Positions 1,597 through 31,395 of a stretch of DNA of 34,324 bases are shown here, piece after piece. Every line of letters begins with the position of its first letter. Position 1 is the stretch's first letter. The notes under the pieces were generated by a model that made no database searches, was not told where the DNA came from, and saw only the letters and a list, made by a program, of their open reading frames with translations. Position numbers and translations under genes: made by a program. This stretch comes from a virus: the IMG/VR virus record IMGVR_UViG_3300001041_000039, positions 1 to 34,324 of that record; one strand, written 5' to 3'.

Positions 1597-1634
1597 AAAC
1601 TGCCTCCTTATTACTTACTTTTACAAAGGTTACT

Positions 1635-2092: not shown

Positions 2093-2095
2093 AAA

Positions 2096-2419: not shown

Positions 2420-2434
2420 GATTAATACCTCTCA

Positions 2435-4058: not shown

Positions 4059-4069
4059 TTATATTCTCC

Positions 4070-15200: not shown

Positions 15201-18200
15201 AATTATAGGAGCTTCATAAGTGTTTAAAGATTTTCTACGTTCTTTGGTGGCGGGATCATTTAATTTATTTAAATCCTCTATTTTGCTTTGTAAAACATCA
15301 TAGGAAGCCGCCATATTTTTAATATTAGTAAGATTATCTTCTTGAATACTACGCATACTATACATAGCATTTGCGTAATCTTGTGCAGATTGAGTCATCC
15401 TACCATATTGATCCCCTAGTACTTTTATTGCCGGTACTAATGCTGCTATTGTGGTTAGTAATGGGGCAACCGCGGCTATAAAGGAAGTATCGTCCGTAGC
15501 TAAATTTTCAGTTAACTTTTTGCCTATATCACCGAGTGAATCACCAAAACCTTTTACAGCCATACCTCCTAAATAGGAACCCATACCAGCTACTTCGGCG
15601 CCCATGGCCAAACCACCAGAAACTAATTTCTTTAGTGCTTGATGTATACCCAGCTCTTTAACTGTTTTTTCTATGTCTTCTTTGGTCATACTATTACGTT
15701 TTCTAATAGTTTCAATAGTCTCCCCTATACCAGCGGTACTACTAAGTTTAGTCCCTACTGTTTTTCCGGCAGCCCCGAATGAGGCTATTCCTTTACCTGT
15801 GGTAGAAACACTATCAGCAACAAAACTATTAAATACTTTACCTACTTCTTGTAGTTTAAAGGACAACCTGCCAAAAGAGGAATGAAAATCTGATAATTTA
15901 GTCCCTCTGGTTACGTCAGTCTTTCCGCCACTAGCATCCGTAGTAGTAAATTTACCTAATGTTTTAAGACCGGCAGTGGCTAATTTACCACCGCCTAAAC
16001 CAAATAGTTCATATTTAGTTTTGGCTAATTCTTTAGTAAATTGTTCTCCGGCCCCAGATATACCTAAAAAGTCCTTACCTCCAGCAAGCATGTCACCTAA
16101 GGATTCGGCTAGTTGCTGTCCCTTAGTCATATAGGTCAGTAAGGCCACAAAAGCAGCGCCGGCCGCTTTGATAGGATCAGGTATAGCAGACAGTGTTTCA
16201 AAAAATGTTTTAACTCCACTTAAACCTATTTTAAATGCCGGCAAAGCTACTTTACCAATAGACATCTGTAGTTCTACTAAAGCAACTTTGGTTTGTTCGA
16301 GCTGTTTTCTATAAGTACCCATTAATTCAGCATTACGTCTTTCTGCGGAGCCTTTGGAATTCATACTCTCTTTGGTGGCACGTAAAGCTTGATCCCAGTT
16401 ATCCATTAAAGCTATGAGAGAGTTATATTGTCTGGTACCACCAAGTGCTTGGGAGGTAGCCAATTTTTGGGCGTTACTAAGGTCTTTCCATTTTTTGCTT
16501 AGATCATCTAAAACACTAAAACCAGATCTTAACTGTCCAGTAGATTCCATGACAGGAATACCTAATTTACCCAGCTGCTCTGGCCCTTTTTCGGCAGAAA
16601 GTCTACGTAAAATAAATCTAAGAGAAGTACCTACTTCTTTACCTGATTGTCTTGTAGTTGAACCGATAGCGGCAACAATACCATTTAATTGATCAAAAGT
16701 AACACCAGCAATTTTGGCTGCCGAGGCGGACTTTTGAATAGCATTGGCTAAGTCACCAGCAGTAATAGCGCTCTTGGCTTCAACCTCACTCCAAGCATCT
16801 AAAAAGCGCATAGCACTATTACCTTCTTCTTGGTAAATTTTCATGGCTGATGTTAAAGCTTCAGTAGCTTCTGATGCTTTTAATGTAGTAACATTAGCAG
16901 CTAAGGTAGATACCTTAGTTCTATCTATTATTTCTGCTTGTGTTAAACCTTGCTGTGCAAAAACATTCATAGATTGTAATACATCTGTTATACCAACACC
17001 ATATTGTTTGGCGAAGGTAACCGCGGCCGCTGATAAACCATTTATATCAGAAGACAGAGGATTTAACATCATTTTAAGTGTGGCTAAACTATACTCTATT
17101 TCAGCTAAGGTACTAATAGCTTGTTTGAGTTGCGCAAAACCTCCGTACACTACGGTAGAAGCAGCACCCCATTTAACAGCACGCCCTATTGCACCTCTAA
17201 ATCCGCTATTAGATCCTTGCATAGCGGAGGCTAAATCTCTTTCTTTTATTGTTATGTCACTTAGTGATTTACCATACTTAGCAAAGTCCACCACAACATT
17301 ACGAACAACCTGCCCAGTCTGATCCAGAACTTTGATAGGATAAGATCTAACCTCACCTACACGTGCACCACCAGATTCTTGAGGCTTCTCAAAATACTCT
17401 TTTACTTTTTCTACATTACTTGTGTGCATAGCCAGTTGCTCTTTCGGCGCTAACCATTTTGGAACTGGCACTGTGCCTGCCTCACCCCAGTCTTTATTGG
17501 CAGACTGGTTAATCATGGTGTATGAGTTCTCTACGGATTTTAAATACTTTATGACAGTCTCTAAATTCTTCTTTTGAGCTGCTCCAAAATCGTCCGTTAG
17601 ATTATACTTCATGTAACGTTCAAGAGAAGCGCGGAGCCTACTTAATTTTTCAGCCAAAAGATCAAAATCCCAAGCATGCATAACATCAGAGCCCATCCTA
17701 GTTAGCATCTCGGCATTTTGCATCATGTCTATCATTTCTCTTTTAACATTGGAACCAGTAATTGTAGATACAGCTGTACGTGCTTTTTCAACAGCAGGGG
17801 TCATCACACTGTCTTTTTGTAAATCACTTACTATATTTTCAAACATTGATTGTAGTTGTTTATCATCACCTAATGGTGTTGTAGCCTTAGTAGCCAACTC
17901 ACCTGGTGTTTGATAAACATTTAGTCTACGTGCCATTTCCGGCATTACAAATTTTTTATCTTCTGTGTAAATGTCTGTTCTAGAACCAGCTACCCTACTA
18001 ACAAACTTTCGCATTCTTGATATAGCGGATTGTGCCTTACCATAACTTGCGGTTTCCGCCTCAAAATCTTTTGAGGAGCTAGCCGCTTCGTAGGCCCTTT
18101 TTGCCTCCTTGGCTTGAGATAAGTAGTAATCTCCTTCCGCCATTCTATACAATTTCCAAGCTTTATTTAATTGCGCTCCTGCTCTACGTTCACCTTCAGG

Positions 18201-21200
18201 TCCACCTTGATCAGTGGCTAGCTGTTTAAATTTATCTGTTGCTTTTCTAAATCTATCCATATCTGGGCCAGTTTTACCTGTGCCTCTAATTATGTCGGAT
18301 AAATCTTTACTTACTTTTTCGAGACTATTAAGCTCTTCTTCATAGTTGATGTTACGAACTTGCCGTTGGAATTCTTTGGCGGCTGTATGGAATGTGGTGA
18401 AGTTCTCTAAATCGGCCCATACATCCTTACCAGCGGCTATTTTAGGGCTATATAATTTGTCTATATCACTAATTGAATCGGTTTCGTCAAGTTTAAAACC
18501 CTTAATTTTCTCTTCACTCTCTTTAGGTGTCATCGGTCTGTAAGAAGCAGCCCTTTGTCTACCGCCGCCCGCAGTTTTAACAGATTCAAAATGTTTTGAA
18601 GACTCATCTAACATTCTCTTTAAATCAGAAGCACTTATATTTAAAGGACTAGCCTTCTTTGCGGCCTCCGTTTGTTCCTCTAAACTACCTGTGGTTCTAA
18701 ATTTACCAGCAAACCTTCTAGCTTTAGCTACGGCATCCACATCTTTAGCTAATAAGGCTGGGTCTTGTTTAAATTTCACAACTTCAGGGGTATCTTCACC
18801 CTTACCCGTGCTACTATAATACTTAGCCTCGCCTTTAGTTGCACCAATGGCTGTCATATAAACATTTAACTGTGATGCCACATCCAGTAATTTATATGCG
18901 GCCGCTAGACTGGGTTTGTCCCCTTTCTCAATGAGTTTGGCGTAAACTTCTGGGAAATCAGATGTACCGGAAGTTTGTATGGCTTCTCCAATAGCTTTTT
19001 TAACCCCCTCACCTACTGTCTTTATATCCATAGGATATTTTTCACCAGTAGTTTCATCTTTCATTACAACATCTATATGCCCGGTTATAGGGCCAGACTT
19101 TGTGGTTAAAGCCACAAATTGTTCTATGGCAGCTGTGGGGTCCATAGATATTATATCTTTTTGTATTTTAGCATGTATGGCTTGACCAACAAGAGCAGAG
19201 GCTTCTAAGAAGTCATTAGGAATGTTGTCACTTTCTCCACGCATTGCTGACACTATGGCAGCTATCTGACGACTATTTAATTCTTTTTCAGAGAAGTCTT
19301 CTTTTTTAAACCCACTCTTATAGGAACCGCCGCCGGCTAAAGCACTGGCTCTATATATTGTTGCATATGTTGCACCGCTAAGCTCATTGTGGCCACCTGT
19401 TATTTGGGCAGACCATTTTTTAAGCTGTTCTACATCGATAGCAGGCTCAGTAGTTGTCTGAGTTTTAGCTTGTGGGGTGTCTCCTACAAATAAACCTATA
19501 CCAGCAGCAATGCTTTGTAGATGAACATTTAAAGCACCGCCAGTAAAAGTAAATGGTCCCCCTGGAACACCAGCACCCGGTGTTGTTATACCAGGGGTAG
19601 CCGGGGGCGGGGGCCCTCCTGCAGACCCGTAAATACCGGCCTCCATTATAGGAGAAGATACTTTAGCCGCCTCTATACCTGCGGCGGAACGATATGTTGT
19701 TCCCCTAACTTTACCTGAGGAGACAGGGGGTAACATAGTAGCCACGTCCATACCAGAGGCACTAGAAGTTTTAAATACTTTTAAAGCTCTATCTAGTGAA
19801 TATAAGGCCTTCATTTTTTCTGAAAATACGTCTACATACTCATCTACTTTGGTTTGTAGTTCTTCGGGAGTTAAGCCTTGATCTTTAAATTTAGTTTCAG
19901 CTATCTTACTAAGTTCGCTTTTACCTAGTAGCTCTATTTCTTGTAACACTGACGGCTCTACTACTGGCAGCCCCGCTAATGTAGTATAATAGTCTACAAC
20001 ATCACGCATACGCATTAAATCCTTAGCTGAGGATCTATCTTTAAATACTTGCGTATGTATTGGAGACATTGTGGCTAAGTCACCCGTGGTTAATTCAGTA
20101 AGCTTACCAATACTATCTTGTATTGATTTAATATCCAGAGGTTCGTAATTAGCAATAGCTGCAGTTACAGCTTGCACGTCTTTCTGTGAATTTTTTAATC
20201 TATCGGCAGAAGTCTTTACCAATTCACCGTAAGCACCAGAACCAGATACCTCATATAACTGATTAAGCTCATCTTCCAAATTAGATGCGGTAGCTACTGC
20301 CTTTGCCATACTAGACGAGTATCTAGCTTCTTCTTTTTTACCATAAGCACCTGGCTGTAATTTAGATATACCCACATCTAAATCTAACGCGCCTTTACCA
20401 TGCTTACTGATATAAGCACCCATTTGGCTTTCTGTACTAGCGCCGGCGGTTCTAAATTTATATAATGGTGCTTCTTTACTAGTTATTAGGCTTGAAGCTA
20501 CCGCAGATGGACTTGATTCTTTTAATCTTCTGGCATATTCTTCTTTGGCTGCCGCTTTAAGGGTGTCAGGAGACATTCCTTGGCCCTTATTAGCGGCTAT
20601 TTGTTTCTGTAATGTATCCAGAGCCGAATTTATAATAGACTGCTCTAAACGCGTTAGAAAGCCTCTAAAACCCATCTTGTCTACCATCTCAGCAGTAAAT
20701 TTATCTATATCAGATAAGTCAGCAGTTACACCATAAGCGGTTGCCATACTTTTAACATCATCCGCCATCCCTTTGGACAACATGCTATGTATTCTATCTG
20801 TTATAGCTTGAGCATCTGCCTTAACAAAATCTTTAAGATCTTCGTAGTCTTTATTATTTAAAATGTTTTTATATACTTTTTCTCCGCCACCAGGTTCCAT
20901 TATATCTCTGGTTATATCCGAGGACACAGAAGCGGCGCCGGCATGTTTAACGTCCATACCTTTCTGTAAGCTAAATCGGGTTAGCTCATTCATTCTAGCT
21001 TGTTCGTCCCTAGAGAATTTCTGATCGCCCTTAGCACCTATTAAGCTGGATTCCCCAGATACATCTTTATTGTAAGAAAGACTTAAGCGTGTAAAAGCCT
21101 CTGTTTCAGGGCCTGTATGAATTTTAAATAACTGCGCGGCCACAGCTGACTTAGTTCTCTCATTTGCCAAAGAGGCACCTGTTTGAAATTTAAATGATTT

Positions 21201-24200
21201 TTTAAATTTATCATCTAAGGTCTCTATTACTGCCGCAACTTTATCTGCGTTATTTTTTAATTCGTCCGCGTTACTAAGATCTTTTATGTTAGTCACGGCC
21301 GCTTCTAACTTGTCAGCATCTGTTTTATCGAGTAAGTTGCTTATTTGTTCAAGTACTTTATTTAAATCCTTGGAATCTCCGGCTAAAGCCTGCATCTGTT
21401 CGGATAAAGATAAGAAACCCATATCTTCCGTAGCAAAAGGTTTCTGCATAAAACTGAAACCTTTTTCTGTTGGAAATTTTTTAGCAAAAGACTCTCCCAT
21501 CTCTGCTAAGGTATATTCCGATGCTGGGGGCTGCACCGCGCCATAAGTAAACTGATCTCTAAATACTGATGCTGTATCAGATAAATCCTGAGTTAAGGTA
21601 TCATAATGTTTTTTAATATCCCCTCTGGCTTTAACATTAATAGCAGAGTGAATTTCTATGGCGTCACCGTCAAAATCTAGTTTTTGTTGATGTGCTATAT
21701 ACTTAGGTAATAAATTGGATATAGCGGCATTAAGCTTATCAATTAAATCTGTTAATTTTTCTAGCTTCTCTGGTGAGGCTGCGGCGCCTTTACTTAACTC
21801 ACCGGCACGTTTGGTGGATAGATCTTCCCGCTGTTTAGTCATTCTTTGAATAACGCCAGATAAAGCATCCATCGGTAGATTGGGCATACCAGGAACAGCC
21901 AATACATTACTAGCCATACCTCCTTTACCTTCATCTAGTAGTCTAGCTTTATAGGGCTGTATTGAAGATGTACCTGTAAAAGGATAACGAAGGCTCTCTA
22001 TATAAGGAGCTAGCTCTTCTTCTATGTATTTTTTTATAGTGGCTTTTTCTTCCGCTGTGCTCCCTTTACCCTGCAGATCTTGGGTGTAACGCAGCATGTC
22101 TAATAGAGTACCTTCTACCTTAGTAGCTGGAGCAGCCTCGCCTTCTTTTGTAAATTTCTTGGTGAAGGACACAGGTATCTTTCTGGCTATTTCCGCAGGG
22201 ACACCGATCTCATGCTGACCCAATACTGGAAGACCTAACTCACTTGTACGTTTTAGACGCTTGCTATGTTTTTCTTTTATAGATTGTGTTTGTTCCTGCA
22301 GTGATTTTAAAGATTTAATACTTTTTTCTGATATCCCCATCTCTTGTTGCATTTCTGGTGATAGGCCCTCTAGATCACCTATGATGGCGGACATCTGTGT
22401 ATCAAATGTTTCTAGATCTTTTGTCTTATCAACAGTAGCAGAAACAGCCTTAGCCATGACAGCTGGTATTTTTCTAGTAAATAAAGTTTCTGCAACAGAA
22501 CCACTTTTACCTAAGGTAGTTTCAGCCAAAGTCTCTAAATAATTTATTTTAGCTTTTTGGACAGCAGCAAGTTTATTATTCATCTCTTGTTCTAACATGC
22601 CCTTACCGCCAGAAAAATCTTTACTAATGGTATTTAGTTGCTCAAGTAAGTTACCTTTTGGATCTACTTTAAATGGTACTTTACCTTCGCTCAATTGTCC
22701 TGAAACTGTGGCGCCGGCATGTCTAAGAGCTTTAAGTATGGCGTTGTATCTTTTTTCGGCATAGTTAGCTTGGGATTGAACAACACCTTCCATAGAACTA
22801 GCGTAGGACTTATCCATAGATGCGGACAAATCATCGTTTATATTCTTTTTAAATGTTATCCACATTTGTTCTAATTCTTTTACATATTTAGGATCATAGG
22901 TGGATAGCCTGCCCCCTTTCACTCTTATGTCACTAGTGGTGGACAACACAGAAGATTTAAGCATTCCCGCAGCAGCTTCTTTCATAACTGCTTCCGCTGT
23001 TTTACGTGAATCTACATTTTTAGCCATATAGTACTGTTCAGTGTTGGTTACAAAATCTTGGTAGTCCTTAGCGGAGTTTATTAAGTTTTGTAATACACGT
23101 GTAGGCTCTTCGGGACCAAATTCCCCGGCTACTAAGGGCTCAGGATAAACACCGCGGCCAGCAGGGGACGGGACATAGAAGTCCTCAAACGCTGTGGGCT
23201 TTTGACCAAGTTTGGCTTTAGAAGCATCAGATGATGGTAATTGTAGCATAAAGGGCTTGTTGAATTTCTCAACATCCATAACAGTTCCCAACATACTACG
23301 CTTACCTTTATCCAGTGTTCCTGTAGAATAGTCAAAAGATTTTAATTCATCTACCGATACTTTTTCTAACTTATTTCTTAAAGCTCCTAAAACCTCAGAG
23401 TCTTTATTAGTATTGGCTATTAGGGTCTTTATGTATTCCCAATGTTTTTTATCGGTATCACTTAGCTGTTCTACAAGTTCTGCTTGACTACCAGCACCCT
23501 GAATTGGTGTCTGGTTTATTTCCTTCATCAATTCCGAATCTTTACCAAAAACATTTAGATAGGCTGTATAAGCTGGGACATTAAGCTTTGCACCTTTTAT
23601 ACGTTTACGCACATCAGTGGTAGACCATGCCTCGGTAGCGGTAGGCTCCTCCACTACCTGTAAGAATTTTTGACCGACAAGACTCTTACGTTTTTCTCCA
23701 AACTCGTCTATAATTTCTGTATAAAAATTAGACATCTCCTCAAGAGCGGCGCCACGTTTTGCCATTACAGCTGCTTGATCAGACTTCTTACCACGTTGCA
23801 TAAAGATTTTTGTTAAAGCTTCCTCTGCCTTTCCTGGGTCGGTACCCTTAAAACCCAAAGCGGAACTGTATGTAGATAAGGATTCTTTACCACTACCGAG
23901 TAATTTTTTATACATATCGGGGGCGAACTTATCCCGTAACGTTGTGTAGGCCTCATCTTTTTCTGATGCTTTTTGGACATTAGCAACGTTATTAAGTATG
24001 GTCTCTAATACCTCTGTCTGTAAACCACGTTTACCAGCACCTAAGGAACTTATTCTAACATCAATTGGTTTTAGTTCATACAAACCACCTTCTTTAATCA
24101 TACTACTATATGTTTGTTTCAGGTTATTTATACCATCAACACCATCGGTTATGGCTATACCAATTGAACTAAATAGCTCCTTGGCTTTATTATAGATATC

Positions 24201-27200
24201 TTGTTGGACAGAAGCCTCTTCTGGAATAGTTAAACCTGATGTAGCATCTTTAAAATACTCTATCATAAACTTATTACCAGAGTTTATGAGTTGTGATTTT
24301 AGCCCTTCTACTTCTGATTGAGAAGCACCTGCTGCTGTAAGCCCTTCTATTTGACTATCTAACAATTCAGCTGCTAACTGCCCCATACTTTTAGGCATTT
24401 TGGCAGTACCTAAACCAGCGTTTACCTGCTCTTCACTAGTAAGTACTTTTATGTTTTTATCACCCCAAGTTTTAAGAATGTCTGACATTTTAGATGTGTC
24501 AGTAGAGGTCATAGACACACCCTTCGATCCAAAACGTGTGGTAAACTTTCTACCAAAGTGATTCATAAAAACTTCGGCAACTTTCGCTGCTTGCACTTCT
24601 ACATTCTCAGAACGTACTGTTGCCATGGCTTTTTGTACTTCTGTAATAAAAGCTTTGTCTGCGCGTCCTTTATAGGTATTACTAACTCCTAACATATCCT
24701 GAAACTGGCTATATACTTTATTAATAGCCTCAGGAGAATCTACATCTTTTAACACCCCAGGCTTAACATCTGATACCGCCTCTGTGCCTTTACCCGAACT
24801 TAACTCTTTTCCCAGCATCCTACCGCCGGCTGCGGGTAAAACTAATGTTTTTGTTAAAGAGGTAACAGCATCAGCAAGTTTACCAGATACAAGTATTTGA
24901 TCTTCAAACGTGCCGGCAGTGTGGCGTAATTCAGCAGTGACGTTAAAACCATAACCTTTCTCACCGTAACGGCCACCTTCGATTAAAGATTTTTCACGCT
25001 CTGTTCTTAATGTTGGTGTTGTAGTACCAATCCCTTTTACACGGGCTACATCAAATTTATCTGTAAGGCCGTTTATTTCATCAATAGAAGAGGACATAGC
25101 GTTAGTAACACCCGCTATATTACGTCCTAATTGTTGAAATTCACCAAAAGGGGCCATGCTTGTTAAGTCATCAACAAACATCTTTATATTAGTTCCACCA
25201 AGTGCTTTTAAGTAAGATAGCCCTTCTTCGTAATCTTTATTATCCTCGTCGGCTCCTCTTACTTTATTAGATTTAAGGTAAGCTATGGAACTAGCCTGAG
25301 ACTCGGGTATACCTAAGGAGGATAGTTTTCTTCCTTGTGTAGGCAGTTCTTGTAACCGTTTAACAATAGGACCAGATTCCGGAGATTCTGCCGCCAATTT
25401 AGCGAGCATGTCCCTTTCAGCGTACATTTCCTTAAAACGTAGGTTTAAATCTTTAATATAATTTTTATGTTCTTCAGGTTTTAATTCATAATCCCTTTCA
25501 GTAGGATATAAACCTGGTGTACCTCTGGAAAGAAGATTAACCACATTAGATTGCTGTAAACCACGACGTGGTTTACCGGGCTCTATTAGCGGCATCAGTT
25601 GTTCTACTTGTTTTGTAGCTGATTCAAAGCCCCTGGCACCACTCTGGTATGCTGGTTTTTCTACCAACTTTTTTAGCGGGTCTGCTAAGACCTTACCATA
25701 GATATCATATATGTTTTTAAATTCTACTTTATCTAAGGCCTTTGCAAAATCATATGCTGACACTTGTGCGGTGTTCATCATATTAACAAAAGACATGATC
25801 TGCGTTTTAAGATCTTTGTTGGGGTCAAGGGTAAACTGATCTATCTGATTAGTAATGTTGGTTAATGCAGGTAATATGTCTAAATCAGGATCTATACGTT
25901 TTTTCTGCACCATTTTGGAAACAGTGGCTGCTTTGTACCCTTCTTTGATGCCGGAGAATTCTTTAATAACACGTGCATATTCAGTTGATGCAGGTGCACC
26001 CTGTTTAAAAGTGCTTATATCAGCTAGCAATTTAGTTACTAAATCTGATACAGCATTTTGTTCTAAGCGTGTTTGGGGATTAACACCAATAGTTTGTATT
26101 TTAGAAGCATAGTCTTCTTCGCGGCTTAATGTGCCGGCCTGTAGTGCCTTACTGTACAGCTTTTCCAGCCCTGTTTCAAACATTGCAAATTTAGATAAAG
26201 CACGTTCTGAGCCATGAGCGGTTTCCAAAATAGGGGTACCGGAAGGAGTCATCCTAGCCGCAGGTAGTGCCACATTACGGATATAAGGGGCTGGATGTTC
26301 TTTTCTTGTAGTGTCCACATCAGATAAACTTCTGTTGACCTCAGCTACCGCGTATGTTTGTCTAGTAAGTTGTGTTAGTGGCCCTAATTGACTACCAACA
26401 GCTTTTTTTACACCTTCAACTAAATTAACAGTGCCTTTGGATGTTTCATAAGCCGTTTTAAGATCAAGAAGTGCTTTTTTAATTTCAGGATCTGCCACGG
26501 TTGTCCAACCAGCTATATTTTCTTTCGACGCGGACTTCATCCACGTAGCTACTTTACTAGCCAGTAACTCCGCATTTTCATCAGCACTACCGCCATGAGT
26601 TACATTTGCCATTAACTTATCTAACTGCAGCTCTTTAAAGGCAGAAACTATTTGATTTGGATCACCCGTAGCAGTTCTTTTGTTTTTTGTAAGTTCTCTT
26701 TGCATAGATTTTACATCCGCTATCTGCATGGTCCACATTTTAGCGTTTGTTTGATTTAAGCTATTACTTACATTTGTAAAATATTTGCTACTTTCAGGAG
26801 CTCCGGGCATTTCTAAAGGCTTCCAATCAGATTTACCTAATTGCTCAGTAACCGTGTTAGTAATATCTTTTAGTAATGCATTTAATGAGCTGGAAAGCTG
26901 TCTCTCCATAGCATGGACGTCGAGGGAAGCTCTGGAAGCGGAGATACCTTTAAGAATACCTTGCACAGAATCAGCCATCTGATCTTTTGCGGTAGCTACT
27001 TTATCGAACTCCTGTTTTATATTATCAGCACTATAACCACCTACTGCTGGTTTTATTACTTTAGATCCATAAACAGCTTTTTGTTCTGATGTACTACCGA
27101 TCGCTTTAATTCTGCTAATATTTGCTGCCGGTGTGGTAGGAGCTTTGGCGCCGACATTAGTAGCAACTTTTGTAGTTGGTGCAGCCAACACAGTGTGTTT

Positions 27201-29114
27201 AGTACTATCAGCTAATTTAGTTAAAGACGCAGCTACTTCGGCTACATTACGCTCTAAGGCTTCAAACTTGCTACTTAAATCTTCTGTTTTTATAGCCCTA
27301 ACCTTAGTTACTAAATTATCAGCAATTTGAGATCCGGCCTTGGCTTGATTTACCATTGAGGCCTCAGTCGTATTTTGGAGCTCATCAATCAAAGATCGCA
27401 GGGCGGCAATCTCACTAGATGCTTTTTTTACTTCTGGGCTATTAAAAGAACTCGTCCTTAAGGTCTTATTTATAGATTCAGTTTTAACACTTAAAGATTC
27501 TGTAAGAACCCCTTTTAATGATTCTAAATTCTTTTTTAAAGTAGATATAGCTTGTTTATAATTATTAAAATAGCCACTTAAAGCTTTGGCAGCCTCGTCG
27601 GCGTTTAAATCAAGCAGCACGTCTAATTTAACGTTATCTGGAAATTTAGAAGTTATTAAACGTTCAATGTTTTCTAACTTAGGGGCTATTACTATCTCAG
27701 CAGCACCTGATGAAATTTCCTTAATTACAGAATTAAGTTCTTTTTTAACATCCGCAGTGTCTATTGTAACATCTAGGGTGGCGGCTTTATCTATAATATC
27801 AAGTAGTGTAGTTATTTCCTTAAGTTTTTTATTAAGTGTTGTAGCTACACCTATCTTAATATCTCTATCTTTTACTAGAGTATCTATGTCTTTTTCAGCT
27901 AATTTAGTATCGGCAGAAACTTGGACAGTTACTTTACTGTTAGAAGCATTTATTATAGAATCAATTGTTTTTCTAAATGCTTTATCATCAACATCTACTG
28001 ATAGTACCAACTTTTCAGAAAGTTTATTGAGTCTAGTAATTATTTCTTTATCATTAAGGGCTACATCTATTTGTTGCTTAGACTTTTTAGTAGCTGTTTC
28101 TAGATATTTTATGTTGCTGGTAGATCCACCAGATTTTAAAAGTTTAGGTAAGTCTTCTAATGCTTTACTTACAGCACGTAACTCAGAAAGTGTACTAACT
28201 AAAACTTTATCTGTTTGTTTAGAAGGCTCTTTACTAACTGTACTTGTTTTCTTTGCAGCAGATAAAGTAACCAAACTTTTTTCTACTGATTTAGATATGG
28301 CGGAGGCCAACGCATACGTATCGATACCGCTAGCAGCAGAAGAGCGTTGTTTTGTAGTTTCTTCTTTTACGGCTTTTTTTATTTGATCTAGTTCTTTTAT
28401 AATGTCAGAACTAGCAGCTGGTGAAGCCTCTACTGCTTTGGATAATTTTGTTAGTCCGGAAGTAAGTTGTTTAATCTCTGAATATAATTTTGATAGTCCA
28501 GCACTTACTTCTTTTACATTTGATGTATCTTTGGTTGTTGTAACAGTAGTTTTGTAGGAATTATCTACGCTCTTGGCTAACCCTTCTATGGCTGTTTGTA
28601 ACTTAGTTAATTTACCAAAGTCAGTTGATGCAGGATCTTTTTTAATGGCAGTAAGGATAGAGGTATTGAGATCTTTTATACTTTTGTCTATGGCAGTTTT
28701 ATCTGATTTACCTGATATGGCGCCTAATACTTTTGTTAGCGCACCTAATTCTTTTGTTATAATTGATTCTAATGCCTTAGTATCTAATGTAGTTGTAGGT
28801 TTACCCGAAGACGTGGTTCCGCCTGCAGTGATACTTCGTTGAAATTCTTTGGCTATTGTTTTGGAAATATTATCTGCAAGGATCTTTGCTTGCTGGGCAG
28901 TATCTTTTGTAGCAGTGCTTGACTGAGCTTTACCATACGCATCATTTAGCCCATCCTTTATTGCTTTTTTAACAGAAGACGCTAATCTATCGGTTAACCC
29001 ATTAAATGCTTTTGCTAATGTGCTATCTAAGGTAGAAGCTATATTGTCGGCCTTATTGCTTCCTGAACTTGATCCACTTATTATATGAGATACTGTGATG
29101 TCGTGCTTAGCCAA
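6258..29114 (-). CDS. Giant tape measure protein with embedded RNA polymerase and nuclease domains
   Basis: A single open frame encodes 7,618 residues. It starts at TTG 29114, seven bases after a consensus AGGAGG, and ends in TAA four bases before the next gene. Regions in order: a Lys/Ser-rich helical N-terminus (1 to about 680); a segment with RNA polymerase beta-type motifs (1319-1579); beta-prime-type motifs (2301-2484, with possible bridge-helix and trigger-like parts to about 2740); a Pro/Gly linker (from 3166); a RecB-like PD-(D/E)XK nuclease domain (about 3245-3480); a helical stretch; a TP901-type tape measure core (about 3985-4335); hydrophobic segments near 4520, 5510, 5825 and 6786-6825; Gly-Gly/G-E-Y-V repeats (about 5590-7380); and a coiled C-terminus. 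Tape measure proteins set tail length, occupy the tube lumen and are released at infection. The gene order (after chaperones, before tail-tip genes) and the core domain fix this identity. The enzymatic insertions, and their delivery into the host, are the unusual part. Typical tape measures have roughly 700-2,500 residues; the longest one I know of, from Thermus phage P74-26, has about 5,000. Confidence 0.95.
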   Translation of the reverse strand: MAKHDITVSHIISGSSSGSNKADNIASTLDSTLAKAFNGLTDRLASSVKKAIKDGLNDAYGKAQSSTATKDTAQQAKILADNISKTIAKEFQRSITAGGTTSSGKPTTTLDTKALESIITKELGALTKVLGAISGKSDKTAIDKSIKDLNTSILTAIKKDPASTDFGKLTKLQTAIEGLAKSVDNSYKTTVTTTKDTSNVKEVSAGLSKLYSEIKQLTSGLTKLSKAVEASPAASSDIIKELDQIKKAVKEETTKQRSSAASGIDTYALASAISKSVEKSLVTLSAAKKTSTVSKEPSKQTDKVLVSTLSELRAVSKALEDLPKLLKSGGSTSNIKYLETATKKSKQQIDVALNDKEIITRLNKLSEKLVLSVDVDDKAFRKTIDSIINASNSKVTVQVSADTKLAEKDIDTLVKDRDIKIGVATTLNKKLKEITTLLDIIDKAATLDVTIDTADVKKELNSVIKEISSGAAEIVIAPKLENIERLITSKFPDNVKLDVLLDLNADEAAKALSGYFNNYKQAISTLKKNLESLKGVLTESLSVKTESINKTLRTSSFNSPEVKKASSEIAALRSLIDELQNTTEASMVNQAKAGSQIADNLVTKVRAIKTEDLSSKFEALERNVAEVAASLTKLADSTKHTVLAAPTTKVATNVGAKAPTTPAANISRIKAIGSTSEQKAVYGSKVIKPAVGGYSADNIKQEFDKVATAKDQMADSVQGILKGISASRASLDVHAMERQLSSSLNALLKDITNTVTEQLGKSDWKPLEMPGAPESSKYFTNVSNSLNQTNAKMWTMQIADVKSMQRELTKNKRTATGDPNQIVSAFKELQLDKLMANVTHGGSADENAELLASKVATWMKSASKENIAGWTTVADPEIKKALLDLKTAYETSKGTVNLVEGVKKAVGSQLGPLTQLTRQTYAVAEVNRSLSDVDTTRKEHPAPYIRNVALPAARMTPSGTPILETAHGSERALSKFAMFETGLEKLYSKALQAGTLSREEDYASKIQTIGVNPQTRLEQNAVSDLVTKLLADISTFKQGAPASTEYARVIKEFSGIKEGYKAATVSKMVQKKRIDPDLDILPALTNITNQIDQFTLDPNKDLKTQIMSFVNMMNTAQVSAYDFAKALDKVEFKNIYDIYGKVLADPLKKLVEKPAYQSGARGFESATKQVEQLMPLIEPGKPRRGLQQSNVVNLLSRGTPGLYPTERDYELKPEEHKNYIKDLNLRFKEMYAERDMLAKLAAESPESGPIVKRLQELPTQGRKLSSLGIPESQASSIAYLKSNKVRGADEDNKDYEEGLSYLKALGGTNIKMFVDDLTSMAPFGEFQQLGRNIAGVTNAMSSSIDEINGLTDKFDVARVKGIGTTTPTLRTEREKSLIEGGRYGEKGYGFNVTAELRHTAGTFEDQILVSGKLADAVTSLTKTLVLPAAGGRMLGKELSSGKGTEAVSDVKPGVLKDVDSPEAINKVYSQFQDMLGVSNTYKGRADKAFITEVQKAMATVRSENVEVQAAKVAEVFMNHFGRKFTTRFGSKGVSMTSTDTSKMSDILKTWGDKNIKVLTSEEQVNAGLGTAKMPKSMGQLAAELLDSQIEGLTAAGASQSEVEGLKSQLINSGNKFMIEYFKDATSGLTIPEEASVQQDIYNKAKELFSSIGIAITDGVDGINNLKQTYSSMIKEGGLYELKPIDVRISSLGAGKRGLQTEVLETILNNVANVQKASEKDEAYTTLRDKFAPDMYKKLLGSGKESLSTYSSALGFKGTDPGKAEEALTKIFMQRGKKSDQAAVMAKRGAALEEMSNFYTEIIDEFGEKRKSLVGQKFLQVVEEPTATEAWSTTDVRKRIKGAKLNVPAYTAYLNVFGKDSELMKEINQTPIQGAGSQAELVEQLSDTDKKHWEYIKTLIANTNKDSEVLGALRNKLEKVSVDELKSFDYSTGTLDKGKRSMLGTVMDVEKFNKPFMLQLPSSDASKAKLGQKPTAFEDFYVPSPAGRGVYPEPLVAGEFGPEEPTRVLQNLINSAKDYQDFVTNTEQYYMAKNVDSRKTAEAVMKEAAAGMLKSSVLSTTSDIRVKGGRLSTYDPKYVKELEQMWITFKKNINDDLSASMDKSYASSMEGVVQSQANYAEKRYNAILKALRHAGATVSGQLSEGKVPFKVDPKGNLLEQLNTISKDFSGGKGMLEQEMNNKLAAVQKAKINYLETLAETTLGKSGSVAETLFTRKIPAVMAKAVSATVDKTKDLETFDTQMSAIIGDLEGLSPEMQQEMGISEKSIKSLKSLQEQTQSIKEKHSKRLKRTSELGLPVLGQHEIGVPAEIARKIPVSFTKKFTKEGEAAPATKVEGTLLDMLRYTQDLQGKGSTAEEKATIKKYIEEELAPYIESLRYPFTGTSSIQPYKARLLDEGKGGMASNVLAVPGMPNLPMDALSGVIQRMTKQREDLSTKRAGELSKGAAASPEKLEKLTDLIDKLNAAISNLLPKYIAHQQKLDFDGDAIEIHSAINVKARGDIKKHYDTLTQDLSDTASVFRDQFTYGAVQPPASEYTLAEMGESFAKKFPTEKGFSFMQKPFATEDMGFLSLSEQMQALAGDSKDLNKVLEQISNLLDKTDADKLEAAVTNIKDLSNADELKNNADKVAAVIETLDDKFKKSFKFQTGASLANERTKSAVAAQLFKIHTGPETEAFTRLSLSYNKDVSGESSLIGAKGDQKFSRDEQARMNELTRFSLQKGMDVKHAGAASVSSDITRDIMEPGGGEKVYKNILNNKDYEDLKDFVKADAQAITDRIHSMLSKGMADDVKSMATAYGVTADLSDIDKFTAEMVDKMGFRGFLTRLEQSIINSALDTLQKQIAANKGQGMSPDTLKAAAKEEYARRLKESSPSAVASSLITSKEAPLYKFRTAGASTESQMGAYISKHGKGALDLDVGISKLQPGAYGKKEEARYSSSMAKAVATASNLEDELNQLYEVSGSGAYGELVKTSADRLKNSQKDVQAVTAAIANYEPLDIKSIQDSIGKLTELTTGDLATMSPIHTQVFKDRSSAKDLMRMRDVVDYYTTLAGLPVVEPSVLQEIELLGKSELSKIAETKFKDQGLTPEELQTKVDEYVDVFSEKMKALYSLDRALKVFKTSSASGMDVATMLPPVSSGKVRGTTYRSAAGIEAAKVSSPIMEAGIYGSAGGPPPPATPGITTPGAGVPGGPFTFTGGALNVHLQSIAAGIGLFVGDTPQAKTQTTTEPAIDVEQLKKWSAQITGGHNELSGATYATIYRASALAGGGSYKSGFKKEDFSEKELNSRQIAAIVSAMRGESDNIPNDFLEASALVGQAIHAKIQKDIISMDPTAAIEQFVALTTKSGPITGHIDVVMKDETTGEKYPMDIKTVGEGVKKAIGEAIQTSGTSDFPEVYAKLIEKGDKPSLAAAYKLLDVASQLNVYMTAIGATKGEAKYYSSTGKGEDTPEVVKFKQDPALLAKDVDAVAKARRFAGKFRTTGSLEEQTEAAKKASPLNISASDLKRMLDESSKHFESVKTAGGGRQRAASYRPMTPKESEEKIKGFKLDETDSISDIDKLYSPKIAAGKDVWADLENFTTFHTAAKEFQRQVRNINYEEELNSLEKVSKDLSDIIRGTGKTGPDMDRFRKATDKFKQLATDQGGPEGERRAGAQLNKAWKLYRMAEGDYYLSQAKEAKRAYEAASSSKDFEAETASYGKAQSAISRMRKFVSRVAGSRTDIYTEDKKFVMPEMARRLNVYQTPGELATKATTPLGDDKQLQSMFENIVSDLQKDSVMTPAVEKARTAVSTITGSNVKREMIDMMQNAEMLTRMGSDVMHAWDFDLLAEKLSRLRASLERYMKYNLTDDFGAAQKKNLETVIKYLKSVENSYTMINQSANKDWGEAGTVPVPKWLAPKEQLAMHTSNVEKVKEYFEKPQESGGARVGEVRSYPIKVLDQTGQVVRNVVVDFAKYGKSLSDITIKERDLASAMQGSNSGFRGAIGRAVKWGAASTVVYGGFAQLKQAISTLAEIEYSLATLKMMLNPLSSDINGLSAAAVTFAKQYGVGITDVLQSMNVFAQQGLTQAEIIDRTKVSTLAANVTTLKASEATEALTSAMKIYQEEGNSAMRFLDAWSEVEAKSAITAGDLANAIQKSASAAKIAGVTFDQLNGIVAAIGSTTRQSGKEVGTSLRFILRRLSAEKGPEQLGKLGIPVMESTGQLRSGFSVLDDLSKKWKDLSNAQKLATSQALGGTRQYNSLIALMDNWDQALRATKESMNSKGSAERRNAELMGTYRKQLEQTKVALVELQMSIGKVALPAFKIGLSGVKTFFETLSAIPDPIKAAGAAFVALLTYMTKGQQLAESLGDMLAGGKDFLGISGAGEQFTKELAKTKYELFGLGGGKLATAGLKTLGKFTTTDASGGKTDVTRGTKLSDFHSSFGRLSFKLQEVGKVFNSFVADSVSTTGKGIASFGAAGKTVGTKLSSTAGIGETIETIRKRNSMTKEDIEKTVKELGIHQALKKLVSGGLAMGAEVAGMGSYLGGMAVKGFGDSLGDIGKKLTENLATDDTSFIAAVAPLLTTIAALVPAIKVLGDQYGRMTQSAQDYANAMYSMRSIQEDNLTNIKNMAASYDVLQSKIEDLNKLNDPATKERRKSLNTYEAPIITLGRAQEDVISLANQLAESNSNLVLGYDKVGNAVLKASTNFDEYFKVLDKSRTKQLAESEVDVASKFIEDLTKTGGSENTKKMIKDIASEVPIIGEMLAKGIKVAPAKAIAEVTAQLNNLLSIKAKSPMSSAVDKDIKKYQETLKALRNDYAATYKEFSNVLGNINTKGLDPNEIAKIFADPRLKEGYDVILNMEPRLNIAGLKGKINWQDVLGQTVMQRALPSAKSLDFTKELTKGKLESAGLFERQGKVLNNDIVLFMDDVAAKYNMAGKQAIVKLKETSDGVFEWVAQYFNTKTLKVEERAFDKDMQQLVENIFPANHIQDEITDKIEILNEFVAGAGAGIRAISAKDFKKEFDLGERFFSDIATTTLLQSGKGFTPTASTGKGFGESPFQKSWKKDFEEYYAKPMIKFRSYMEDLDKLKVEGLDEGSVTIANDLYKELENLTTILKNNQVVMQYRAVLADLTKTFESGKRAIEENIAVERSRQEVFKGTTGYLKGISEGLDTFDTGGPKYKDLTVQQRTLIGSEDYRNLAAQLKELDIQKQGASEGMYSSDKALVALDSIAAVSKGFGSVLTKDEMQNFTETVARTGDTGYAELKIETSRVATNTADTVTKLEDILMALGSPGELDKQLEKYMSASSPQDLLTGLERVAEMRDRASATGNSDMVIEANKVLDVMTKNLTSQLGVDRTLKEIGSQNVFGAKNYTATEASQRMFSGLDFRDFVTQMKDVVPEESKWFGLKTVPNKPTFTADVEAINKLQTANQQTQFIDDKTVMKATAAASVASAFQKAGENATVKKLDEQLQVLRAQLAAEEAKPAVNQNKGLIEDLKTQEKTLTTSREDTAAKATLYGAVTTMTASKTAIMEFAKSLGFADDTIKKLGAGTVATYAALLVFSKLLGTDLSEATKNYGKVLKDVATGVANTGEAPSLSQAIKLKRAEKNFYEDYEKNKTQYGFADGGRVFGEGTPTSDSINAKLSKDEYVLDAATARRAGYARLDKFSKTHNPEDLTGFATGGAVKNSLIESKDELKNKADLLRKVNDILKDYPELSDVLKGSEEMALDVLKEKYPEVHKAVTTLSKIKVGKGEEATLNLPDDLKKLLDAVNFKMATGGPIAGEGTGTSDDILARVSNGEYIIKADSAKHLGQSKLDYINEYGKLPTFATGGAVAGPITDPDINRPAQVLATAAAATMAGYLAESNEKLTEIATASKKSAAESTLIADLIQKNTSSAQKIFNTLNEQAIKNATTDKILQGTEVKSKVLDVDAEKKKVEQAIKDMKEVYKQQAQVINKQAADMQEQMLKLEMAEELEKELNDMAAAISNVEITANAKNRFSKLVEESMTYGVKSFVRPSFWSSNFAVPQPGGLLGGKYNPPQVDLGVRSTRDMTTEQYLLFKDKELVSKAKNLSEVGKNFFTNLGRLFTDLDFFAKDLNFESVATFINSLASIQDPRKGVKLEKVFTINKYQKAETSFKALEKAQSKTDLMQSKLTELYIEKQELDALDKTVGLSSKEKKRFKNVDILIDEYEHAIKGQVSKIKNIKIDLEPVIIEGTFKKARSERANTELVEDFSSITRSISQSKTSMTAAMNPELSGFRGDLQFKRKDAELSDQEYFFKSSQGTTKNTIDQLKSAQALTENVSKKIADREQLITDIRLKLLDAGDKETNQTKAYKDEILKLSDETSDLTEDFETLKNSMESLGSITQTVFDTGKSLRVFNESFKSLSVQGFSAGLEGTRNLKLAMDSLVGASGPFAKRMVTPTQQIDALMGGGISLSKFADEFEIRTADLYTQLFSGNLKGNDLQKVIDQITHMPQEKARVREEQDLVKQFQGLDTMVNAINSMEDTLIERISFGNEDAGTKAYYAGSLKQLEELKNSQATFIKSETTIGAVKEKAKAQYGEGTIEYQRYMSQFGGMAESTRAVAITPEVKEGFARIQHDLEKTLMNSDPVVKELINIQKILETLAEKLGVPSSELRQLFKTPGETDKLLPTLETAKFQSPVQKYVSEVEQNSMAGLVAANKALDALSVPTGNLVIELGRVIPKFVEYNNALGNAIVNLTSRAVGAAIKDINIVPPGVAQEKAVKEKATFIGTKMAEQQGFDVNDPIIKAMINQFAAGQAMFISEQERQNARNKPSVFTDTPTKDFVSKGTLSLGASALAAMGPDIALLAEFFMGPQAATLLTAAPLAVGAGVEGYNFAAPKADYLMSLKETNDLLTKAEKDAASRGDLFEKPSLNLPDLENLHLADDAYFKAQIEALYNNTTQLQELNKALKDKPTETTAVDAATPLVKARGGYITGPGGPREDKVPAMLSPGEYVIRAHAAQKLGYDTLDYINKKGIMPGLADGGNVFSASGAQDILTKRRKQLEAIMKENNLADGGNVFSASGAQDILTKRRKQLEAIMKENNLADGGSIPMFTEKEVLTLAKARASVLNEEEQLRKGVKTEDLLGATTSRVSSEEQQLMTQMAERKTTFGESYNAGRVGAAEEYFTATRDIKENVRRLAANDVGTEKQTNTMTFTPNYLYKGAKMSSMTAAAGPAYPEVEQLRNYLEDPTIMRNALSHGIDKETGKPNAGYLPEEYVWQARQSLNKFDKLVTSGNTLQNSPALRALRHVLADVEDRIALTSNIGRVIGLRDTGKLDAMLPMGGAKISETDEGTFWNYAGNLAAKQNMPKELEGLLTTNEFRALAVKSISEGDSARVKTIIEDYLKTRNLDENSNLLSDAFKGNKQLEGGRFMPIMHDGGVTRSTGPHYLEKGEVVLPRRFADGGLVNSELTTNTITNAQQKSITLTWDESKKLQVEDRVLRVEDKELKLADIAPLKVEDKVFDVKLDDNGITDKLTSVISSIPDKISLDSSNVKLDTSNLETMFKNLADSINNTKSVGADSTILDTALESIAFVKEQTDEQIHIIDSKLTNLQESFGKDVQAEINVRIAEVKKDILNNNSKLIDSYINRQRTDISKLKFELTSIDGQLKRLMTLVYANRNIG
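7987..8193 (-). repeat. Perfect 96-bp direct tandem repeat, two copies plus partial third, in the tape measure gene
   Basis: Copies at 7987-8082 and 8083-8178 are identical base for base, and a third partial copy of about 15 bases starts at 8179. The unit encodes 32 residues (ADGGNVFSASGAQDILTK, then RRKQLEAIMKENNL), so the reading frame is kept. Identity at silent positions points to a very recent duplication. Confidence 0.95.
8179..8345 (-). repeat. Third Gly-Gly / G-E-Y-V repeat element in the tape measure
   Basis: GGYITGPGGPREDKVPAMLS, then PGEYVIRAHAAQKLGYDTLDYIN, is the best match to the usual tape measure element. It begins near residue 6924 and is followed directly by the perfect tandem repeat. 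A degenerate fourth copy (GPHYLEKGEVVLPRRFADGG) lies near nucleotides 6915-7000. Confidence 0.75.
8640..8759 (-). other. Hydrophobic, potentially membrane-inserting segment of the tape measure (residues ~6786-6825)
   Basis: LGASALAAMGPDIALLAEFF followed by MGPQAATLLTAAPLAVGAG forms about 40 mostly apolar residues with central glycines and prolines, compatible with a membrane hairpin. Tape measure proteins of several siphophages contain such segments and are thought to help form the DNA channel across the host membrane. Confidence 0.55.
11700..12335 (-). repeat. Two Gly-Gly / S-D-x-I / D-E-Y-V repeat elements in the tape measure
   Basis: GGRVFGEGTPTSDSINAKLS followed by KDEYVLDA, and GGPIAGEGTGTSDDILARVS followed by NGEYIIKADSA, are two copies of one element. 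Each ends in a helix with LDKF or LDYIN and a trailing FATGGAV. They start near residues 5594 and 5746. Similar elements recur in C-terminal parts of phage tape measures and probably form small folded knots along the chain. Confidence 0.75.
16110..17162 (-). other. TP901-type phage tape measure core domain (residues ~3985-4335)
   Basis: The stretch from FRGAIGRAVKWGAASTVVYG through EIEYSLATLKMMLNP, QYGVGITDVLQSMNVFAQQG, SEVEAKSAITAGDLANAI, VAAIGSTTRQSGKEVGTSLR and QALGGTRQYNSLIALMDNW is the classic PhageMin_Tail/TIGR01760 core found in tape measure proteins of Gram-positive and other siphophages. It ends in a hydrophobic segment, AAGAAFVALLTYM. This domain fixes the identity of the whole gene product. 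Confidence 0.93.
18675..19382 (-). other. PD-(D/E)XK (RecB/Cas4-type) nuclease-like domain in the tape measure (residues ~3245-3480)
   Basis: The complete signature of the RecB-like nuclease superfamily is present in order: YRASAL near residue 3253 (the I-R-A-S-x-L type opening); H3314 in GQAIHAKIQ; ITGHIDVV with D3348; PMDIKT with D3363 and K3365, 15 residues after D3348; and QLNVY with Q3415 and Y3419 (Q-x-x-x-Y). In this family the two acidic residues and the lysine bind metal and activate water for DNA cleavage, the histidine marks the bacterial RecB/AddB/Cas4 branch, and Q-x-x-x-Y contacts DNA. No Cas4-type iron-sulfur cysteines are visible. All catalytic positions are intact, so an active nuclease is plausible. 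Confidence 0.78.
19545..19637 (-). other. Pro/Gly-rich interdomain linker in the tape measure
   Basis: From residue 3166 the chain runs GGPPPPATPGITTPG and continues with further Gly/Pro for about ten residues. This is the clearest flexible linker in the protein. It separates the polymerase-like half from the nuclease-like domain, and it may also be a site of proteolytic separation. The DNA is locally G/C-rich, with runs of five G. Confidence 0.8.
20835..22247 (-). other. RNA polymerase beta-prime-like catalytic segment of the tape measure (residues ~2290-2760)
   Basis: QHEIGVPAEIA (H2301, G2304, P2306) matches the H-Q-C-G-L-P-K-K-M-A region of bacterial RpoC. RYPFTG (R2376, P2378) matches the N-R-A-P-T-L-H motif. 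KLDFDGDAIEIH (D2480, D2482, D2484) matches the universal N-A-D-F-D-G-D-Q-M-A-V-H loop, whose three aspartates hold the catalytic magnesium. Order and spacing agree with RpoC; in E. coli about 35 residues separate R-A-P from D-F-D-G-D, here about 100. Downstream, a helical segment around 2645-2680 (AAQLFKIHTGPETEAF) could be the bridge helix. QKGMDVKHAG (D2721, K2723) could correspond to the trigger-type motif of phage and RdRP-like polymerases; both of these are tentative. A beta-then-beta-prime order in one chain is typical of viral single-chain polymerases. Confidence 0.87.
24315..25217 (-). other. RNA polymerase beta-subunit-like segment of the tape measure (residues ~1300-1600)
   Basis: Four motifs line up, in order, with conserved parts of bacterial RpoB. 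(a) S-M-A-P-F-G-E with a following R and G (P1322, F1323, E1325, R1331, G1335) matches the S-L-I-P-F-L-E...R...G region. (b) TFEDQILVSGKL (E1404, D1405) matches NFEDSILVSERV. (c) GRKFTTRFGSKG (K1523, K1531) matches GDKMAGRHGNKG position by position; the two lysines correspond to the catalytic lysines K1065 and K1073 of E. coli beta in its double-psi beta-barrel. (d) MPKSMGQ (from M1573) matches the V-P-S-R-M-N-I-G-Q region. The spacing from (b) to (c) is 119 residues against about 250 in E. coli, so this is a compact version. The alignment was made by eye from known motifs, and the outer domain limits are uncertain. Confidence 0.85.
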
Positions 29115-29193: not shown

Positions 29194-30216
29194 TTAACTC
29201 CGGCGAGTGCGCTTTTTAATGTCCGTCCTATCTTTTATTTTTTGTGCTTCTTTGGGTTTATCATACTTTATATCTTGGTATAAATCATTAGATTGCGTTA
29301 TTATGACCTCTTCTTTACTAAAAGCGGACATTTTGCCTTTATTAAACTTATTACTTTTTTTAGCCGCGTTTTCTTTGGTACGCTCATTATAGTAATCAGT
29401 CATGTAAGCATCTAGTGCATCATCGTCCTCTATTATACTATCTGGTGGTCTATCTTCAGGCATCATTTCGTATATGTTAGAATAATAACTTGACCAATAT
29501 ATTAAATTAAGCTGATCATTAGAGTACTCAACTGTCGGTATACCAAATAAAGACTCAGTAACTTTTTGGCTATGTACATAACGTATACGCCATAAATTGT
29601 GTCTTGCAATAAATCTAATTGTCTTCATTGGGATGCCATGATAAAAATGTAGAAAAGCATTCATAACTTTAATTTTAAAATTTATATTTTTTTCTAAAAC
29701 TAAACTATCTACATTATCCCAATAATGCTTATCGCCTTGTTCTGTGTATGCACAAGCCCAACATAAATAATGATGTCTTTCTTCATCTGCCTTTGTTTCG
29801 GCGGACATAATTAACCTGGAATTCTTTTTATACTCTATTTCATTTATTTGATCTTTAATTTTATTGATAAGCTTTTTAATTCGATCTGCATTAGCTTTTA
29901 CTTTGGTAGTTTTAGACAGAAGCGCTTCTTGGGCCTCTAATTGTGATTTTAGTTTGGCAACTTTTGTTATATCTTCTTCTGTATATAAACCACGCTCGCT
30001 TAGTAATTTTTCTAATTCGGTTATAGAGTATAAGCCTTCATTGATTGCTTGCTTATAAGATCTCTCATAAACCAGTGTAGCTCTAAGACGTATTTCAGAA
30101 GTTGGTTGCTTAAATATTAAGTATACCTCTTCTGAACCTTTAGTAATGTTTACTATTTCCTTTCCTGTGAAAACCTTAAGTAGATAACTATCCACCTCTT
30201 CATAAGATAGTTCCAT
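29194..30216 (-). CDS. Tail assembly chaperone-like protein, copy 2
   Basis: The protein has 340 residues, with ATG 30216 six bases after AAAGG and a TAA stop. It shares the architecture of the preceding gene: a beta-containing N-terminus; Y-K-x(4)-EG-L (EG at residues 60-61) with RG exactly 15 residues later (75-76), the same spacing as in the paralogue; a longer Lys-rich coiled segment (about 85-130); then WDNVDSLV and a helix-rich region. A CWAC pair lies near residue 150. The C-terminus is highly charged and ends KKRTRRS, which could bind nucleic acid or the acidic parts of a partner. In siphophages the second chaperone usually comes from a -1 frameshift extension of the first; here it is an independent gene with its own start. 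The function is inferred from position and paralogy. Confidence 0.6.
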   Translation of the reverse strand: MELSYEEVDSYLLKVFTGKEIVNITKGSEEVYLIFKQPTSEIRLRATLVYERSYKQAINEGLYSITELEKLLSERGLYTEEDITKVAKLKSQLEAQEALLSKTTKVKANADRIKKLINKIKDQINEIEYKKNSRLIMSAETKADEERHHYLCWACAYTEQGDKHYWDNVDSLVLEKNINFKIKVMNAFLHFYHGIPMKTIRFIARHNLWRIRYVHSQKVTESLFGIPTVEYSNDQLNLIYWSSYYSNIYEMMPEDRPPDSIIEDDDALDAYMTDYYNERTKENAAKKSNKFNKGKMSAFSKEEVIITQSNDLYQDIKYDKPKEAQKIKDRTDIKKRTRRS

Positions 30217-30239
30217 GCGTGGCCTTTATATATAGTTAT

Positions 30240-30261
30240 GGGGCTGCTTTTATACAGCCCC
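30240..30261 (-). terminator. Stem-loop between the two chaperone-like genes
   Basis: GGGGCTG pairs with CAGCCCC around an 8-nt AU-rich loop, and ATAACTATATAT follows in transcript direction. It sits in the 62-nt gap between the paralogous genes. The U-tract is weak, so it may act as an attenuator or an mRNA end-protecting structure rather than a full terminator. Confidence 0.5.
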
Positions 30262-30278
30262 TTATAACAAGCAATTCT

Positions 30279-31037: not shown

Positions 31038-31078
31038 AATAAATACTCCTTTACCTTTAAATTAAAAACCTTAGCCTT

Positions 31079-31330: not shown

Positions 31331-31344
31331 TCCTTTAATCCTCC

Positions 31345-31378
31345 AAATATATAAGGGGTGAGGTATTACCCCCACCCC
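31345..31378 (-). terminator. Rho-independent terminator-like hairpin after tail tube gene
   Basis: In transcript direction GGGGTG pairs with CACCCC, with an inner GGT/ACC pairing and a short loop, followed by TTATATATTT. It lies 18-51 nt after the tube stop codon and just before the ribosome binding site of the next gene. It probably gives partial termination, so that the tube gene is made in excess over the downstream chaperone and tape measure genes. Confidence 0.6.
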
Positions 31379-31395
31379 TCCCAGTTAATTAAAAA

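Follow-up and report, generated by a model that had tools for sequence, protein, structure and literature searches.

A giant phage tape measure protein with a predicted two-barrel RNA polymerase and a predicted nuclease ahead of its core

Can the protein that measures a phage tail also bring an RNA polymerase into the cell? This question is raised by a stretch of 34,324 nucleotides (positions 1 to 34,324 of IMG/VR virus record IMGVR_UViG_3300001041_000039, hereafter the window), which is part of a 37,215-base virus record and in which one open frame on the minus strand encodes a tape measure protein of 7,618 amino acids (aa). An initial annotation of the window had read seven motifs of the cellular-type RNA polymerase (RNAP) and a TP901 tape measure core in this frame. 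Our sequence comparisons and structure models support a two-barrel-type RNAP embedded in the tape measure protein, and they also reveal a predicted PD-(D/E)XK nuclease, overlooked in that annotation, which sits between the RNAP region and the tape measure core. The features on which the argument depends are the following:

6258..29114, minus strand: gene of the giant tape measure protein (7,618 aa), an open frame that starts with TTG shortly after AGGAGG
20715..25067, minus strand: predicted two-barrel RNA polymerase region, aa about 1350-2800, borders approximate
24885..24908, minus strand: FEDQILVS, aa 1403-1410, beta-type motif (FEDSILVS in E. coli RpoB)
24519..24554, minus strand: GRKFTTRFGSKG, aa 1521-1532, with the beta-type catalytic lysines K1523 and K1531
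23070..23690, minus strand: connector between the two predicted barrels, aa 1809-2015, which matches that of a separate RNAP (hhalign)
21528..22247, minus strand: predicted beta-prime-type barrel with R-x-P and DFDGD, aa 2290-2529, from VIA-align and from PF00623 in relatives
21663..21677, minus strand: DFDGD, aa 2480-2484, metal-binding triad
20937..21134, minus strand: conserved blocks KIHTGP and QKGMDVKHAG, aa 2661-2726, invariant columns of alignment A3
18711..19445, minus strand: predicted PD-(D/E)XK nuclease of the Cas4/lambda-exonuclease type, aa 3224-3468
16437..17027, minus strand: tape measure core (PF10145, PhageMin_Tail), aa 4030-4226

All seven RNAP motifs lie where the initial annotation had placed them, in the right order and in one chain: SMAPFGE starts at aa 1319 and is followed by FEDQILVS, the lysine motif, MPKSMGQ (aa 1573), HEIGVP (aa 2301), RYP (aa 2376) and DFDGD. 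The number of occurrences expected by chance was computed per random chain with the composition and length of the window protein, and is 1.7e-4 for FED.[IVL]L[IV]S, 4e-4 for MP..MGQ, 8e-4 for G.K...R.G.KG and 4e-3 for DFDGD, the less telling motifs being S..PF.E (0.04), H..G.P (0.09) and R.P (7.4). The TP901 core was likewise confirmed downstream of these motifs in the same frame, with a Pfam expectation value (E) of 5.8e-27 and 95.3 bits against a curated cut-off of 33.2. Several PHROG tape measure families also match the C-terminal half of the protein.

Relatives of the fused gene indicate which of these motifs are maintained. Scanning virus contigs with patterns taken from an alignment gave 29 metagenomic loci, and an earlier scan with single-sequence patterns had given nine, all on contigs that were found again among the 29. 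Four loci are copies or near copies of the window gene and the others are 29-44% identical to it in the best segment; two sit on contigs of more than 230 kb. No relative was confirmed in the bacterial genome contigs scanned, and tblastn against a phage collection returned a single chance match, to a single-stranded RNA phage (E 1). The main alignment holds 24 sequences, namely the window and 23 loci, and omits three copies of the window gene (L011, L013, L014), a near copy of L031 (L034), a truncated locus (L021) and one with a broken frame (L030). Identity of the aligned loci to the window is 32-42%, with the exception of L012 (96%). Invariant in 24 of 24 are K1523, R1527, K1531, G1578, R2376, P2378, D2480, D2482, D2484 and H2489. 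The patterns that fetched the loci were PKYIAHQ and QKLDFDG, so that the retrieval itself accounts in part for the invariance of DFDGD; no pattern was drawn from the lysine motif. The initial annotation had held that catalytic residues varying freely among homologues would count against its reading. The lysines, R-x-P and DFDGD are fixed throughout, while S1319 is kept in only 4 of 24 sequences, H2301 in 11 and M1577 in 18; the motifs S-x-x-P-F-x-E and H-x-x-G-x-P are therefore not diagnostic.

Comparison with a second, predicted polymerase extends the likeness beyond single motifs. One relative, G007 (237,910 bases), encodes both the fused RNAP and a separate predicted single-chain RNAP of 1,178 aa (L044:2001-5537). 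Its Pfam matches, RNA_pol_Rpb2_6 (1.1e-4) followed by Rpb1_2 (3e-4), come in the expected order, and each falls slightly short of its curated cut-off. The profile of the 24 sequences, to which the fused G007 protein itself contributes, was aligned to this separate RNAP and the matches run colinear. The connector (profile 1809-2015) matches residues 541-747 with an hhalign E of 1.2e-6 (prob 91, score 65.6), or 4.3e-6 with alignment A2 alone; profile 1359-1533 matches residues 270-415 (E 2.2e-4, prob 45, score 47.2); and profile 2477-2504 matches residues 872-899 with DFDGD on DFDGD (E 0.019). As controls, the best of 60 column shuffles scored 26.5 and the reversed profile 20.8. Within the 1359-1533 match FEDQILVS pairs with FEDQVLVD and GRKFTTRFGSKGV with the THGNKGV stretch, a pairing in which both lysines are matched and R1527 is unmatched. 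A weak colinear match also joins KIHTGP to KAQTGP (E 0.49), and the KIHTGP and QKGMDVKHAG blocks are possible counterparts of the bridge helix and trigger loop.

The separate RNAP appears to be confined to G007 within the collections searched: a 740-aa part of it found a second RNAP in one of 18 records, that of G007, and only the same contig among viral contigs, and tblastn against the phage collection gave no match. At the DNA level, a DFDGD pattern run on eight records hit the fused site in each, the separate protein of G007 once and no other place. A looser D-x-DGD pattern hit 11 further places, and none of the four that were read looked like an RNAP.

Cellular subunits and domain families point in the same direction. 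Of the local matches to E. coli RpoB, those to FEDSILVS and to GDKMAGRHGNKG, with which GRKFTTRFGSKG aligns, rank first, both short and with E of about 0.25; in RpoC the best is NADFDGD, also short (E 0.016). For two beta-prime slices, none of 100 shuffles reached their scores. The Pfam family PF00623 (RNA_pol_Rpb1_2) is matched by 12 of the 24 members, the window not among them (best E 0.0057), and is the only Pfam family with more than three matching members in the alignments of the tape measure protein RNAPs.

Does a predicted structure bear this out? The initial annotation had expected two double-psi beta-barrels facing each other. A model of aa 1330-2529 has a mean predicted local distance difference test score (pLDDT) of 68.4, and largest subunits of RNAP fill 39 of 50 VIA-align rows, with Z 9.3-10.2 over 248-282 aligned residues; their alignments fall within model positions 541-1198, the beta-prime half. 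The beta-type barrel (barrel B) came out at low confidence. A fold search against BFVD gave nothing meaningful (best E 0.03).

Several results weigh against an RNAP and have to be set beside this evidence. Searched alone against Pfam, PHROGs and the PDB, the window protein has no RNAP family match, and the profiles of alignments A1 and A2 have none in the PDB. The PF00623 matches occur in 7 of 10 records, none of them above its cut-off, and are absent from G001 and G002, which nearly copy the window. Alignment A3 alone aligned to the separate RNAP around DFDGD only (E 0.015). Set against 78 gammaproteobacterial RpoB sequences, the beta slice gives a borderline result, its score being reached by 2 of 100 shuffles and that of a longer slice by 6 of 100. 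In the structure searches, the top four PDB rows of Foldseek are RNAP subunits with E of 0.5 or worse; unrelated helical proteins outscore RNAP in VIA-align with Z up to 12.6, so that the VIA-align Z alone is no proof of RNAP. Finally, the model leaves barrel B, and with it the facing pair of barrels, undemonstrated: when aa 1360-1569 are divided into 21 ten-residue blocks, 17 score below 60 in pLDDT.

The nuclease prediction draws on conservation, profile matches and a model. Its conserved blocks read G..H, E, GHxD, DIKT and QxNxY, and H3314, E3331, D3348, D3363, K3365 and Q3415 are invariant in 19 of 19 rows of alignment A4, which draws on 19 of the 24 sequences; excluded beforehand were L017 and L022, which lack the nuclease motif, the truncated L025 and L038, and L033, which is incomplete there. 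We take the pattern H..E..D..D-x-K..Q to be the mark of the Cas4, lambda exonuclease, RecE and EXO5 family. The window matches PHROG 1706, 'CRISPR/Cas system associated', with E 4.2e-9, and the nuclease profile matches PDB entry 4ic1 with E 8.3e-4. PDDEXK_1 is matched by 4 of 19 members (best 5.8e-5), with no match in the window. In the model every ten-residue block of aa 3310-3479 has a pLDDT of 80-93, and VIA-align superposes it on 4ic1 with Z 12.4 and a root-mean-square deviation of 3.5 over 171 residues; Z against LHK-Exo, Cas4 and lambda exonuclease is 10-12. A profile search of the 29 loci found the nuclease in 24, and L021, L025 and L038 end before its place, so that among the 26 loci extending far enough, 24 have it. 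L030 and L033, which were kept out of the profile, still match it (5e-85 and 7e-30). L017 and L022 have the RNAP and the tape measure core without a nuclease match, and the nuclease therefore looks like a separate module.

The joining of RNAP and tape measure is not peculiar to the window. PF10145 was searched in the records of 26 of the 29 loci (L011, L013 and L034 were left out) and was found in the same open frame in 22; in the other four (L019, L021, L025, L038) the frame leaves the contig before the core. The core-bearing frame measures 6,419-8,619 aa in 16 of the 22 records. In the remaining six it measures 2,524-4,842 aa and is cut by the contig end (L017, L026, L028) or by a stop (L022, L030, L036), the stop of L022 lying close to its contig end. 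Two of these frames deserve a separate word. In L030, two in-frame TAG codons (12293-12295 and 13310-13312) lie in the RNAP part of the tape measure gene and could reflect read-through or recoding, or a split gene; a tRNA looked for in the L030 locus was not found. In L036 (18839-18923), a TAA at 18921 closes the tape measure frame and a second, overlapping frame, 1,611 aa long, carries on, the break being either an assembly error or a frameshift.

Selection was estimated between the window and L012 over window aa 1-5900. The ratio of nonsynonymous to synonymous change (dN/dS) is 0.012-0.034 in four RNAP pieces, 0.029 in the tape measure core, 0.064 in the nuclease and 0.073, the top value among the pieces measured, in the N-terminal part; dS in this comparison is 0.7-3.2, near saturation, a further point on the unfavourable side.

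Outside these parts, the window contains:

25368..29114, minus strand: N-terminal region of the tape measure protein, aa 1-1249, coiled-coil-like as judged by eye
15426..15482, minus strand: possible membrane-crossing part, aa 4545-4563, the sole segment above the hydrophobicity threshold used
29194..33009, minus strand: genes upstream of the tape measure gene, encoding 340, 252, 98 and 537 aa

By their position, the upstream genes may encode tail chaperones and the tail tube; family scans of the 340-, 252- and 537-aa proteins (the 98-aa one was unscanned) gave no convincing match. Among the neighbours of the tape measure gene (141-6253 and 29194-34115, minus strand), none of ten had a convincing match in Pfam and none of six in PHROGs, a 727-aa and the 537-aa protein included. 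A 197-aa protein (3465-4058, minus strand) has a weak match to a PHROG baseplate hub (E 0.061).

Is such a fusion without precedent? The initial annotation knew of no described case of an RNAP in a tape measure, a claim that proved wrong, since gp96 of the Thermus phage P23-45 is a tape-measure-fused virion RNAP already published in 2024 (PMC10770324). As described there, gp96 is a tape measure protein of 5,002 residues with an N-terminal RNAP that is active in vitro; it is present at full size in virions and transcribes the pre-early genes (PMC10770324). The open-licence literature yielded no tape-measure-fused RNAP beyond P23-45 and its Thermus relatives, and no tape-measure nuclease.

Both proteins are giant tape measures with DFDGD in a single-chain two-barrel RNAP (predicted in the window protein) ahead of the remaining chain, and the relative G007 has an extra separate predicted RNAP, as P23-45 has gp64. 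They differ in the position of the RNAP, which is internal in the window protein (from about residue 1,350) and N-terminal in gp96, and in its size, since the RNAP region takes up about 1,450 residues of the window protein whereas the first 1,200 of gp96 are enough for activity (PMC10770324). Unlike gp96, the window protein carries a predicted Cas4-like nuclease after the RNAP; gp96 is annotated with a metallopeptidase domain, whereas an HExxH motif was searched for in the window protein and not found. The profile revealed no similarity to gp96 or gp64 beyond DFDGD: the best local alignments had E of 0.075 or worse, and one of them was the DFDGD stretch itself (alignment A5 contains the P23-45 row twice). 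The window protein is accordingly not classed here with the gp96 family by sequence. The two fusions may well have originated independently, and an absent match is no proof of independence.

Other comparisons place the two predicted enzymes among known families. The cellular beta and beta-prime subunits have FED-x-ILVS, G-x-K-x3-R-x-G-x-KG and DFDGD in the same order as the window; unlike them, the window RNAP is one chain with a long connector inside a tail protein, and the alignment of its family to the E. coli subunits is limited to the motifs. The predicted nuclease has its fold and the H..E..D..D-x-K..Q pattern in common with Cas4, lambda exonuclease, RecE and EXO5 and, unlike them, forms part of a tape measure protein. 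In the crAss-like phage phi14:2, gp66 is a virion protein separate from the tape measure. The family profile had no meaningful match to the 2,180-aa gp77 of the phi14:2 GenBank record, which we take, from its length, to be gp66. Like the predicted RNAP of the window protein, gp66 of phi14:2 is a single-chain two-barrel phage RNAP (PMC10770324).

On sequence, models and analogy, we consider it highly probable that the window protein is a tape measure with a two-barrel RNAP and a nuclease before its core, and that this RNAP would be injected to transcribe the phage genes expressed first. The protein would be built into the tail late in infection and sit in the tail tube. At infection, it would pass out of the tail before the DNA or together with it and be pushed into the cell, as P23-45 in part suggests. 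In the cytoplasm, the RNAP would transcribe the first phage genes on entry without the host polymerase, as in P23-45, and the predicted nuclease, delivered with it, might act on DNA at entry, with host DNA, competing DNA and the ends of the phage genome as candidate targets.

How do other explanations fare against this one? The RNAP may be real and yet be cleaved off the tape measure before or after injection, to act unattached in the head or cytoplasm, with the fusion a mere packaging device. We hold this to be unlikely but worth keeping in mind, as N4-related and crAss-like phages have virion RNAPs fused to large proteins whose function is unknown (PMC10770324). It seems improbable that the two-barrel polymerase has another job, such as primer synthesis or an RNA-templated reaction, instead of early transcription: the superfamily does include RNA-dependent polymerases and archaeal DNA polymerases, as PMC7824862 and PMC10770324 state, but both FEDQILVS and the lysine motif find aligned counterparts in beta subunits that transcribe and in the separate phage RNAP.

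Inactive remnants, retained for length or structure, would fit the absence of the nuclease from 2 of the 26 loci long enough to contain it. Tape measure proteins tolerate changes in length, which also speaks for remnants. We nevertheless regard such decay as very improbable for the RNAP and nuclease, given that the RNAP catalytic residues never change although overall identity to the window is down to 32-42%, that those of the nuclease are likewise fixed in 19 rows, and that dN/dS is low, though with dS close to saturation. That there is no RNAP, its motifs having arisen by chance in a very long helical protein, is disfavoured as extremely improbable. Single-sequence searches without any RNAP match would agree with it, yet the motifs are ordered and conserved, and the family profile aligns with the separate RNAP over long stretches; a chance origin was rejected on that profile match and on the low counts expected per chain (1.7e-4 for FED-x-ILVS, 8e-4 for the lysine motif and 4e-3 for DFDGD).

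If the protein is indeed an injected tape measure polymerase, what does it add to P23-45? Since P23-45 is already known and apparently unrelated, the window and its relatives would represent a second, broader phage group using a tape-measure RNAP, with an extra part. We lean somewhat towards seeing here a second, independent fusion of RNAP and tape measure in a broad group of phages, in which one injected chain would measure the tail, help to open the entry route, start transcription and cut DNA. With 29 metagenomic loci added to P23-45 and its Thermus relatives, injecting a polymerase within the tail ruler appears to be a recurrent solution. This opens to test the passage of large folded enzymes through the tail tube and the transcription of first genes without the host polymerase, and the added nuclease would turn the tape measure into an injected multi-enzyme.

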